Origin: Prevotella denticola
Lineage (GTDB): Bacteria; Bacteroidota; Bacteroidia; Bacteroidales; Bacteroidaceae
Reading direction: 5' to 3'
Length of the DNA stretch: 64,000 nt
Assembly: GCF_900454835.1 (NCBI RefSeq)
Contig: NZ_UGTM01000001.1
Location: 496,501-560,500, forward strand
The notes under the pieces were generated by a model. That model was not told the DNA's origin, searched no databases, and was given only the letters and a program-made list of their open reading frames with translations. This document shows, in pieces, positions 56,636 through 60,834 of this stretch (the stretch's first letter is position 1; every line of letters begins with the position of its first letter). The translations under genes were made by a program, and so were the position numbers.

Positions 56636-58102
56636 TCAGTAGAGTGAGGTTGTGATATAAGTCTGTCTCGGACTGTTCGGACTCTTCTTGTCCGTCGGTT
56701 CCAGCAGATGTGCATCCAGCAGATGGGTGAGAATCCTGCGACGGAAGCTCGTCCGGCTTTTGTATCCTGTAGCATCCATCATGTTGAGAATCGACTTCGG
56801 AGTCACGCAGAGCCTGAGAATTTTTTCAGCACGTTCCGTCTCCTCTTTGGGAAGCGTAGGACAGTACCGTTCTATGCTGGGAGTGTGTCCTGATGGACGG
56901 CCATATTCCATTACCGGTTCAGACACCATGTTCGGCATTTCATAAGGGACAGGACGGTACAGCACGCACTTGAACTGATTGCCCGATTCATCATTGATGA
57001 AGTCAATCTTCGGATATTCGTTCATTGCACGGATGATGCCCGAACCCAGTCCACGGTAAAGCATTGTCTTCGCGCAGAAGCTCGCCATCAGACGGTTTCG
57101 GATGAAGCTGTTGCCGAGTTTTATATCGTCTACGTCCATGCCCCCAGGAAGTTTGCCTGGAGATATGATTTCCACCCGGTTGTCGAAGATGAGCAGACGT
57201 ACGGCAGCAGGCTTCAGGTAGTCACGGTGGACAAGTGCATTCTGCAGGACCTCTTCCAAGGCTATTTCGGAAATCTCCAGGTGTCCCACGGAATTGAAAT
57301 TCTGTCCGTCCTGTAGGGCATGCAGGTTGCTTCTGAGGAATGACATACCCTCGGAAAAGAGCCTTGGGATTGTTCCGTCGATGTCCCTACTGTCACGATA
57401 GTTGACGCTTCCTATGTTGTTGCCATAGAAAGAGACAGCCTTGACAACCATTTCCGGACAGAACATCTGCGGCATATTGCCGAAATAAAGAAGTCCGGCT
57501 AAAGTCAGCCTGCCGTCTAAAGTCGTGATCTGCATGTTGCGCATCAGAGCTTCGAAAGGAAGGCCGAAGTCCGAGGCCTTCTTGTGGAACACCTCCATGA
57601 GGTACTTGTCAACCAGCCATTTGTCGAGGTCTGCAATGCTTGTATTCTTCACCCCCTCTTCATCCGGATGATAAGTCCCCGACTCATAGAACAGCTCCAG
57701 GAGTTCGTTGTTCTCTGTAATGCGTCGTTTGTCTGCCCCCTGCTTGACGAAGATGTTCCCGCTGATGTCCTTGTAGGGTTTGCTTATACCTTCCTTGATA
57801 TGGATGACAAGTAGTTTCTTGCCCTCTATGGCCACGGTTTCGCTTTCAACGTAAAGAGTAGGACGGATGTTTTCGTTGGCAGTATTGCCCACCTGGCTGC
57901 TGATTTTCTGTATTTCTTCGTAGCTTAATCCTTTGACGTTGCCTGTTTTGTCTTCTATGCCGAAGATGAGGTAGCCGCCTTTGCTGTTTGCAAATGCGAC
58001 AATCTCGTCTGCAATGGCGATGTCCTTGCTGAAGTGTTCTTTGAACTCAACTCGACTGTTTTCTCCTAATGAGATGATTGTTTTCAGCTCTTTTGCATCC
58101 AT
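56636..58102 (-). CDS. AlbA_2/Schlafen-like ATP-binding transcription regulator
   Basis: 488 aa. N-terminal AlbA_2 domain (GENSRVEFKEHFSKD, IVAFANSKGGYLIFGIEDK, about residues 11-60). A GHKL-like ATP-binding domain follows (EEVLQNALVHRDY, VEIISPGKLPGGM, RGLGSGIIRAM, about 280-370), and then a C-terminal winged helix (KSILNMMDATGYKSRTSFRRRI). Bacteroidota use many such proteins as regulators. The 200 bp upstream carry five GGTTAAGTA-type sites, some over the promoter, which suggests autoregulation. Confidence 0.88.
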   Translation of the reverse strand: MDAKELKTIISLGENSRVEFKEHFSKDIAIADEIVAFANSKGGYLIFGIEDKTGNVKGLSYEEIQKISSQVGNTANENIRPTLYVESETVAIEGKKLLVIHIKEGISKPYKDISGNIFVKQGADKRRITENNELLELFYESGTYHPDEEGVKNTSIADLDKWLVDKYLMEVFHKKASDFGLPFEALMRNMQITTLDGRLTLAGLLYFGNMPQMFCPEMVVKAVSFYGNNIGSVNYRDSRDIDGTIPRLFSEGMSFLRSNLHALQDGQNFNSVGHLEISEIALEEVLQNALVHRDYLKPAAVRLLIFDNRVEIISPGKLPGGMDVDDIKLGNSFIRNRLMASFCAKTMLYRGLGSGIIRAMNEYPKIDFINDESGNQFKCVLYRPVPYEMPNMVSEPVMEYGRPSGHTPSIERYCPTLPKEETERAEKILRLCVTPKSILNMMDATGYKSRTSFRRRILTHLLDAHLLEPTDKKSPNSPRQTYITTSLY

Positions 58103-58468: not shown

Positions 58469-58681
58469 ATGAAAAAGAGTGTTTTTGCAGTCAATGGTAT
58501 GAAGTGTGTACATTGCAAGGTTAATGTGGAGAATGCCTTAAAGGCTGTCACAGGTGTACAGGCGGCTGAGGCCAGTCTTGATGATGCGAATGTTACAGTG
58601 GAATATGATGAAAATGCGGTAACCCCTGAACGGCTCAAGGAAGCCGTTGAGGACAGTGGACGTTATGAAATGAGTTTGTGA
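58469..58681 (+). CDS. CopZ-like copper chaperone (HMA domain)
   Basis: 70 aa, a single heavy-metal-associated domain with the metal motif MKCVHC (residues 11-16). Delivers Cu(I) to the P-type ATPase. First gene of a copper pair; a -7 box lies at 58396-58403. Confidence 0.9.
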   Translation: MKKSVFAVNGMKCVHCKVNVENALKAVTGVQAAEASLDDANVTVEYDENAVTPERLKEAVEDSGRYEMSL

Positions 58682-58914: not shown

Positions 58915-60834
58915 ATGAAACAGACCATTCCTGTTATTGGCATGGCGTGTTCGGCATGCTCTGCCAATGTTGAAAAGAAGCTGAGCGAGCTTGATGGCAT
59001 CAATTCAGCCTCGGTATCGCTTCCTGGCCGTTCGGCTCTGATAGACTATGACCCTGATGTGATTTCACTTGAGAAGATGAAGACTGAAATCAATGAGATA
59101 GGTTATGATTTGGTCATTGACAAGAAAACATCCGTAGAGGAGATAGAAAAGCGTACGTACACATTGCTGAAGCGCAGGACTTTGCTGTCGTGGCTGTTTG
59201 CGATTGCCGTGATGTGTGTGTCGATGCGGTGGATAGACCTTGGCTCGCGTGACATTTCCAATCAGGTCTCATTACTGATAGCTCTGTCGAATATGCTTTG
59301 TTGCGGTCGTCAGTTCTATGTTTCTTCGTGGAAGCAGCTGCTCCATGGTACTGCCAACATGGATACTTTGGTGGCATTGTCTACAGGCATTGCATTCTTG
59401 TTCAGTTCCTTTAATACGTTTTGGGGTGATGCGGCATGGGCGAGTAGGGGTGTTGTGTGGCATACTTATTTCGATGCATCGGTAATGATCATCACATTTG
59501 TCTTGACTGGCCGCTTACTGGAAGAAAAGGCTAAAGACGGTACGGCATCGTCTATTCGCCAGATGATGGGCATGGCACCAAAGACCGCCCATGTCGTTGA
59601 GGGCGACAGGATCGAGGAAGTTCCTATCTCGACAATTGGGGTAGGGGATGTCCTGGAGGTGCGTCCCGGTGAGAAGGTACCTGTCGATGGCGAAGTTATA
59701 TCCGCAGAAAGCTTCATGACGGCAGACGCTGCGTACGTTGACGAGAGCATGATTACAGGAGAGCCGACGCCAGTTGAGAAAAAGAAAGGCGCAAAGGTAC
59801 TGGCAGGAACGATACCGAGTCAGGGTAAGTTCCGCATGCGTGCCCGCCAGGTCGGTGAAGACACAGCCCTGGCACATATCATCCGAATGGTGCAGGAGGC
59901 ACAGGGGTCAAAGGCTCCTGTGCAGCGGGTTGTCGATAGGGCAGCATTGATATTTGTCCCTGTTGTAGCCTGCATAGCCCTTGTCACGTTTCTGTCATGG
60001 TGGGTTATCGGAGGAAATACTTATCTCCCGCAGGCTATTATGTCGGCTGTTGCAGTGTTGGTCATCGCCTGTCCTTGTGCTATGGGACTGGCGACACCGA
60101 CAGCTCTCATGGTGGGTATCGGCAAAGCTGCCCAGAAACAGATTCTCATTAAGGATGCCACAGCCTTGGAAAGTCTGCGCAAGGTGACTGCCTTGATAAC
60201 GGACAAGACAGGCACGCTGACCATTCCTAACAGGAACATCGACTTTACAAAGGCTGACAACCTTCCGCTTGAAGTGCGTGAGACATTGAAGCCCAAGGCC
60301 CGTGAGGCGATGGAATCCCTGCAGCAGAGCGGAATAGAAGTCTATATGATGAGTGGAGACAAGGAGGAAGCAGCACGCTACTGGGCTGACAAGGCAGGCA
60401 TCAAGCATTATCATAGTGAAGCATTGCCACAAGACAAGGAAAATCTTGTCAGGCGGTTGCAGACAGAAGGAAAGTGTGTCGCCATGGTCGGAGACGGAAT
60501 CAATGATACCCAGGCTCTGGCACTGGCTGATGTAAGTATTGCCATCGGAAAAGGAACGGATGTCGCCATGGATGTCGCACAGGTGACGCTTATGGGGAAT
60601 GACCTTTCTGCAATTCCAGAGGCAATACGGTTGAGTCGTAATACCGTCCGCATGATATGGGAGAATCTCTTCTGGGCCTTTGTCTATAATATCATCTGTA
60701 TTCCGCTTGCAGCCGGTTTGCTTTATGCTTTCGGCATTGACTGGCAGATAACCCCTTCATGGGCAAGTGCCCTGATGGCTTTCTCCAGCGTCAGTGTGGT
60801 ACTTAACAGTCTCCGTCTGCGTTGGATGAAATAG
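58915..60834 (+). CDS. copA: Copper-translocating P1B-ATPase lacking a normal N domain
   Basis: 639 aa. N-terminal HMA domain (GMACSACSANV), membrane segments, actuator with ITGEPTP, Cys-Pro-Cys at 386-388, phosphorylation motif DKTGTLT with Asp430, and GDGINDTQALALAD at about 526-539. Only about 50 residues separate DKTGTLT from the MSGDK motif (Asp482), where CopA proteins normally have ~170-190 including the nucleotide-binding N domain with the SEHPL motif. That domain is absent. The frame is clean and the rest well kept, so this looks like a real compact form. The role in export of Cu(I) is inferred from motifs and copZ. Confidence 0.85.
   Translation: MKQTIPVIGMACSACSANVEKKLSELDGINSASVSLPGRSALIDYDPDVISLEKMKTEINEIGYDLVIDKKTSVEEIEKRTYTLLKRRTLLSWLFAIAVMCVSMRWIDLGSRDISNQVSLLIALSNMLCCGRQFYVSSWKQLLHGTANMDTLVALSTGIAFLFSSFNTFWGDAAWASRGVVWHTYFDASVMIITFVLTGRLLEEKAKDGTASSIRQMMGMAPKTAHVVEGDRIEEVPISTIGVGDVLEVRPGEKVPVDGEVISAESFMTADAAYVDESMITGEPTPVEKKKGAKVLAGTIPSQGKFRMRARQVGEDTALAHIIRMVQEAQGSKAPVQRVVDRAALIFVPVVACIALVTFLSWWVIGGNTYLPQAIMSAVAVLVIACPCAMGLATPTALMVGIGKAAQKQILIKDATALESLRKVTALITDKTGTLTIPNRNIDFTKADNLPLEVRETLKPKAREAMESLQQSGIEVYMMSGDKEEAARYWADKAGIKHYHSEALPQDKENLVRRLQTEGKCVAMVGDGINDTQALALADVSIAIGKGTDVAMDVAQVTLMGNDLSAIPEAIRLSRNTVRMIWENLFWAFVYNIICIPLAAGLLYAFGIDWQITPSWASALMAFSSVSVVLNSLRLRWMK

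Follow-up and report, generated by a model that had tools for sequence, protein, structure and literature searches.

A P1B-1 copper ATPase of Prevotella denticola that lacks the nucleotide-binding domain

A reading frame in a 64,000-nucleotide stretch of the Prevotella denticola genome (hereafter the window) encodes a CopA-like P1B-1 ATPase of 639 residues from which the whole nucleotide-binding (N) domain is missing (Table 1). Judged from its sequence and those of its relatives, this short pump probably still exports Cu(I) by way of the P-type phosphoenzyme cycle, with its phosphodonor held without an N domain.

Table 1 Features of the short copper pump and its chaperone gene, in window coordinates.
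Feature	Positions	Strand	Basis
P1B-1 copper ATPase without N domain, 639 aa	58915–60834	+	TIGR01511, 510 bits vs cut-off 397
N-terminal HMA metal-binding domain, residues 4–65, GMACSAC	58924–59109	+	Pfam PF00403
A (actuator) domain, ~residues 213–335	59551–59919	+	PF00122 at 220–408; limits approximate, from alignment to solved pumps
TGE motif, 281–283, dephosphorylation	59755–59763	+	G282, E283 in 104/104; 281 is T in 86, S in 18
CPC motif, 386–388, copper transport site	60070–60078	+	104/104
Predicted complete P domain without N insertion, 407–575	60133–60639	+	AlphaFold2; structural alignment to 4umw
DKTGT, 430–434, phosphorylation site D430	60202–60216	+	104/104
Short loop in place of N domain, 437–455	60223–60279	+	Sequence alignment
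E456, D in N-bearing copper pumps (DxxK motif)	60280–60282	+	E in 104/104 short, D in 23/23 long
MSGD, 479–482	60349–60360	+	S480 in 103/104; G, D in 104/104
K508, P-domain lysine	60436–60438	+	104/104
GDGIND, 526–531	60490–60507	+	G, D, G, N, D in 104/104; 529 is I in 98, V in 6
Y591–N592	60685–60690	+	104/104
MAFSS, 621–625	60775–60789	+	M621, S624, S625 in 103/104, one gap
copZ-like copper chaperone, 70 aa, one HMA domain	58469–58681	+	Pfam HMA, E 6.6e-16

Architecture and conservation of the short pump

The initial annotation had placed D430 only about 52 residues from the MSGD motif and concluded that the N domain was missing while the HMA, TGE, CPC and GDGIND motifs were intact. Both statements are borne out. 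DKTGT starts at residue 430 and MSGD at 479, with 52 residues from D430 to the aspartate of MSGD (D482), and MAFSS is present as well. Sequence alignments of the pump to Pfam, NCBIfam and PDB entries break at ~436–454 and resume past the N domain; those to solved copper pumps, CopA among them, stop near 436–440 and restart near 452–454. The regions bearing the N-domain motifs SEHP and GxGxxG are absent, and DKTGT and GDGxND are separated by 96 residues versus 195–219 in 23 long-form copper homologues. The Pfam match to PF00702 (residues 454–539) covers profile positions 93–191 only, which is the second part of the P domain, and the match to PF00122 spans the A domain together with some of the membrane region. 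No nucleotide-binding domain was found elsewhere in the protein, a possibility that the annotation had also raised: the 639 residues comprise the HMA domain, membrane helices, and the A and P domains. Since the N domain is lacking, we class the pump as a descendant and variant of P1B-1 and not as an ordinary member.

The predicted full-length structure is of moderate quality (mean pLDDT 75), and its best structural alignment is to the E1-state structure of HMA4 (8q74; Z 27.1, rmsd 4.8, 548 residues aligned). The P domain alone was modelled by AlphaFold2 with pLDDT 92.0 and pTM 0.87, as a core without a cap insertion. In this model 167 of 169 residues align to chain positions 413–676 of 4umw (Z 26.0, rmsd 2.7), and two short strands lie at the would-be N-domain exit. 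The 50 matches listed in a fold search with the P domain alone are P-type ATPases or their domains; in all fifty the matched chain span exceeds the number of aligned residues, because the N domain lies between in the solved chains. As modelled, the N domain is cleanly excised, leaving a P domain that is predicted to be a complete fold, with no leftover domain unaccounted for.

Conservation was counted in 104 non-redundant short copper sequences and compared with the 23 long ones. Residues D430, K431, T432, G433, T434, G282, E283, C386, P387, C388 and K459 are invariant (104/104), as are G481, D482, K508, G526, D527, G528, N530, D531, Y591 and N592. Among these, we take K508 to be the phosphate-binding lysine of the P domain; GDGIND is presumably the Mg2+ site, and Y591–N592 and MAFSS presumably supply membrane copper-site residues. 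Other positions have shifted within the short form: the threonine of TGD has become serine in 103/104 (position 480), and CPCAM replaces CPCAL in 98/104. The serine was rejected as a mark of N-domain loss because N-bearing Zn/Cd-type pumps have it too (8 of 37 long rows). Likewise, D456E is not needed for the loss, since it is confined to the short copper clade and the short Zn/Cd-type pumps described below keep D (10/10).

In 96 of the 104 sequences DKTGT and GDGxND are 96 residues apart; the distance is 97 in three and 83–89 in five, in which the residual loop has eroded further. From the end of DKTGT to E456 the linker has 21 residues in 98/104, and DFT occurs in 98/104; of the seven rows that differ, five have 8–14 residues, one has 22, and one has 21 without DFT. 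The five short linkers and the one without DFT led us to reject the linker as an essential substitute domain. The short copper pump is under purifying selection: dN/dS between the query and its nearest relative (L036) is 0.065 overall, 0.081 over residues 456–575 and 0.015 over residues 580–636, and values of 0.05–0.16 were obtained for five other unsaturated pairs, the remaining query pairs being saturated (dS > 2.5 or not computable). In one Prevotella-group MAG the A-domain region of copA carries an in-frame insert (L109:4706–4833) that contains two 36-nt direct repeats and inverted-repeat arms of 32 nt, 97% complementary to each other; it looks like a small mobile repeat that would still be translated.

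The short copA keeps ordinary copper-homeostasis company. The 70-residue protein encoded upstream has CopZ as its best NCBIfam match (72.8 bits, below the cut-off of 91), and a BLAST count puts a same-strand copZ relative upstream of copA in 61 of the 78 loci whose flank leaves space for one. Within flanks of up to 4 kb around 80 loci, copZ is the one same-strand neighbour common to many, others being in the minority. By a motif search, 25 of the 80 loci have, no more than 4 kb from copA, a gene for an AraC-type regulator whose N-terminal part contains CxxC. No such gene was noted next to the window's copA; in the example tested, Pfam detects the AraC helix-turn-helix only. This regulator (L088:3252–3878 and 24 other loci) is possibly a copper-sensing AraC fusion. 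Just upstream of copZ in the window, on the reverse strand (56636–58102), lies a gene for a Schlafen/AlbA_2 protein whose C-terminal ATPase domain is RecG-like, and for which no link to copper was seen.

Distribution and origin of N-less pumps

Species genomes were scanned with peptide patterns taken from the query, one of which (YMMSGDKE) spans its SGD, and the best 80 of 142 encoding stretches were kept; both the query-derived patterns and this selection bias the scan towards close relatives, which here comprised Prevotella, Segatella, Hallella, Hoylesella, Leyella, Xylanibacter and MAGs. All 80 kept loci (best 80 of 142) have the short form, with a DKTGT-to-SGD spacing of 50, or of 51 in L105, L106 and L108, and this shared spacing excludes chance and assembly error. 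The assembly deletion envisaged by the initial annotation is therefore ruled out by other genomes. More broadly, an assembly deletion, pseudogene or sequencing artefact has practically no chance of explaining the short form, given its presence in isolates as well as MAGs and the purifying selection on it, and nothing speaks for an artefact beyond surprise at the missing domain.

The family was sampled evenly with 149 genomes, each at least 95% complete; among the matches listed, 21 of the 30 genomes from the window's genus have the short form. None of these 21 has a long CopA at E 1e-50 among the matches listed, and the nine other listed genomes of the genus have no copper pump of either form. 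In G138 two match pieces belong to one 685-aa frame. Also among the listed matches, the short form occurs in two genomes of two other genera (G073 and G088); G115, G121 and G127 match via short Zn/Cd-type pumps, and most of the remaining matched genomes have a long pump, matched as two pieces in frames of ~715–950 aa.

Even samples of the phylum and of the order were searched with a 169-aa junction query, which is copper-specific and would miss short Zn/Cd-type pumps. Among the matches listed, the junction was spanned at E < 1e-40 in 2 of 392 phylum genomes (G000 and G042) and in 4 of 393 order genomes (the same two, G057 and G1017). The first three belong to the window's genus, and G1017 is coded as another family of the order. 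Horizontal transfer to that family was not accepted, as the contig shows synteny around copA with L053, a short-form locus of a Bacteroidales MAG (identity 89% for copA, 92% for the next large gene and 47–78% for other shared frames); the contig may be Prevotella-group DNA, and mis-binning or labelling is possible. As to how widespread the short form is in Bacteroidota, which the initial annotation had asked, it is common to many related species. In a database search only a Segatella record was matched in one piece among 15 of at least 5,000 records. One annotated short copy bears only the generic name 'heavy metal translocating P-type ATPase'. The short copA of Segatella hominis HDD12 is carried by a 317-kb replicon labelled as a plasmid, beside an Hsp20 gene (NZ_CP137560.1, 291587–293524).

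For 77 short and 21 long copper rows, a quick tree without bootstrap was built from the alignment columns outside the linker and the N domain. The short rows form one side of one branch (SH-aLRT 100), on a long stem of 0.96 changes per column, and are nested among N-bearing CopA rows, inside P1B-1, in this quick tree; the sister group is made up of long CopA proteins that belong to other genera of this family (SH-aLRT 93, not starred). One stray long row of the tree, L027, has no CPC and is probably KdpB, and it was excluded from the residue counts of the 23 long sequences. This topology points to a single origin of the copper short form.

With the Zn/Cd-type protein L025 of G015 as the query, N-less Zn/Cd-type pumps were recovered from three genomes of genus g27 (L146–L148) and, in the window's genus, from at least 7 of 299 genomes, one of them G015 (L220–L226, E 1e-125 or better). 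The short L025, L146, L148 and L223 score above the cut-off of TIGR01512 (the cadmium family) and below that of TIGR01511 (copper), as do the N-bearing L002, L144 and L204, and in the short pumps the best-matching stretch of TIGR01525, the heavy-metal model, ends at the excision. Stops reported in L128, L147 and L225 sit at the C-terminal end. The catalytic residues tested are kept in 10/10 short Zn/Cd-type pumps, the K of DxxK being R in two. In a quick tree of 48 Zn/Cd rows, the starred branches, which were the ones used, force at least three changes: one for L146–L148; one for L025, L221 and L222, which are sister to the N-bearing L144, L145, L227 and L230; and one for L223–L226, which form two unresolved pairs. 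A tree uniting the four short Zn/Cd rows then known was rejected (p-AU 0.0002). As the short rows fall on separate branches, the N domain was lost separately, at least three times, in the Zn/Cd-type P1B pumps of this family; counting the copper clade, and taking the N-bearing form as ancestral, at least four losses have occurred within one bacterial family. By eye, two further Zn/Cd-type P1B pumps (L207 and L209) have repeat-like in-frame inserts in the region of the P or N domain.

Probable energisation of the short pump

The residue set for phosphorylation, hydrolysis and copper movement is fully constrained, and for this reason we take the protein to be an energised exporter; we infer pumping, the direction of transport and the donor from sequence. 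CopZ or the HMA domain would pass Cu(I) to the membrane site formed by CPC, YN and MxxSS. Asp430 in the cap-less P domain would be phosphorylated by a donor recognised only via its phosphoryl group and Mg2+, there being no adenine-binding N domain, and the TGE loop of the A domain would then hydrolyse the aspartyl phosphate as the metal exits to the periplasm. The initial annotation had offered two readings, that ATP binding is done differently or that this is a non-pumping or sensor form. The former is the better supported, if widened to a phosphodonor held without an N domain, with the phosphorylation and dephosphorylation residues at 104/104. The latter fares less well, since some relaxation of catalytic or transport residues would be expected and those counted stand at 103–104/104.

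With respect to the donor, acetyl phosphate or a like compound ranks above weakly bound ATP, and ATP above a partner protein. A small phosphodonor such as acetyl phosphate is the likeliest of these, a choice that we make tentatively. It is a rather doubtful extension that a non-nucleotide donor of this kind charges the cap-less P domain directly, which would explain the four or more N-domain losses, couple metal export to fermentation flux and make these pumps a class of P-type metal pumps that has dispensed with nucleotides. ATP, held weakly by its triphosphate, comes second and seems an unlikely donor. Acetyl phosphate is made and used by acetate kinase and phosphotransacetylase, and 17/17 genomes examined have both; as the N-bearing control G157 is one of them, these enzymes do not discriminate and are uninformative as a marker.

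The alternative that best survives is that the protein is not energised and acts as a Cu(I) facilitator, a sensor or a chaperone-like membrane protein with a structural or regulatory P domain. In an ordinary copper pump, that of T. maritima, the N-domain change H479Q renders CopA defective in ATP use (available portion of PMC4179477), and for H1069Q of ATP7B a loss of phosphorylation is cited, the paper's own data giving ATP binding as unchanged (available portion of PMC3203118). Going by these portions, point changes in the N domain spoil ATP use or phosphorylation, such that loss of the whole domain might end ATP-driven pumping. The absence of the gene from nine listed genomes of the genus also fits a non-pump, as do the long stem and D456E, which could mark a change of function. 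Nevertheless, D430, K508, D527, N530, D531 and E283 are each found in 104/104 sequences, which would hardly be expected without a phosphoenzyme, and the same catalytic residues persist in the ten short Zn/Cd-type pumps, making a non-energised protein quite unlikely.

A separate protein might instead stand in for the missing part in trans, providing nucleotide binding or the cap, whether as a stand-alone P1B N domain or as an unrelated partner. This would be the simplest replacement, because in a CopA crystal structure the nucleotide sits between the N and P domains (available portion of PMC3203118). A profile built from 13 P1B N domains was searched in 34 genomes and matched in 29. In the P. 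denticola genome and in eight regions inspected, the match forms part of a P1B pump and directly follows DKTGT, and the remaining matches are in frames of 575–755 aa; the only match in G015 (E 0.1, 371-aa frame) was taken as none. Five of the 34 genomes (G100, G168, G115, G121 and G127) have no P1B N-domain match at E 1. Of these, G100 and G168 (99% complete) hold the short copper pump and one other P-type pump detected with PF00122 (889 and 914 aa), which by size alone is P2-type, and the P-type pumps of G115, G121 and G127 are one short Zn/Cd-type pump and one of 874–922 aa. On the strength of these five genomes, a stand-alone P1B N domain was rejected as a general answer. The P. denticola genome does retain one P1B N domain, and an unrelated partner would be invisible to a homology search. 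However, this single match lies inside a 633-aa Zn/Cd-type pump, and copZ alone is widely shared as a same-strand neighbour. We thus regard a partner in trans as very unlikely, and an exporter that holds its donor without an N domain as the preferred reading.

Implications and comparison with known systems

An A-P-N headpiece is generally regarded as central to a P-type ATPase. We found no report of a P-type pump without an N domain among the titles and abstract openings listed from the open-licence literature, a scope outside which most subscription papers and bioRxiv preprints fall, and the N-less Zn/Cd-type pumps, with their independent losses, are new here. In Prevotella-type bacteria of the gut and mouth, a part long thought essential to these pumps may thus be dispensable. 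A pump that is under selection and that has repeatedly evolved without its N domain amounts to a natural deletion experiment, asking whether this domain serves phosphorylation or just nucleotide affinity. If a small phosphodonor does drive the short pump, then a 'P-type ATPase' is not always an ATPase. Moreover, predictions of copper export for such bacteria rest on an assumption, because the short form is the only CopA found in the surveyed genomes of the genus and its annotation is generic.

The short pump shares with the P1B-1 CopA group (3rfu/4bbj, ATP7B 7si3 and HMA4 8q74) the HMA, A and P domains, CPC, YN and MxxSS, the DKTGT, TGE and GDGxND motifs, and a TIGR01511 score above the cut-off. 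It differs from them in lacking the N domain with its SEHP and GxGxxG, in having E in DxxK, and in mostly having CPCAM. Its nearest N-bearing relatives among the matches listed are long CopA proteins (L137, L139, L141 and L142), with 52–54% identity over approximately residues 2–438; unlike the short pump, these have a full N domain, in frames of 741–744 aa. The short Zn/Cd-type pumps (L025, L146–L148 and L221–L226) have the same excision and retained catalytic residues as the short copper pump, but match TIGR01512 rather than TIGR01511 (four scanned), fall on separate branches and keep the D of DxxK (10/10). By analogy, the cap-less P domain also resembles cap-less (C0) HAD phosphatases and response-regulator receivers, which have an Asp-phosphorylated Rossmann-like core that is open to small phosphodonors and which, unlike the short pump, are soluble and have no transport part.
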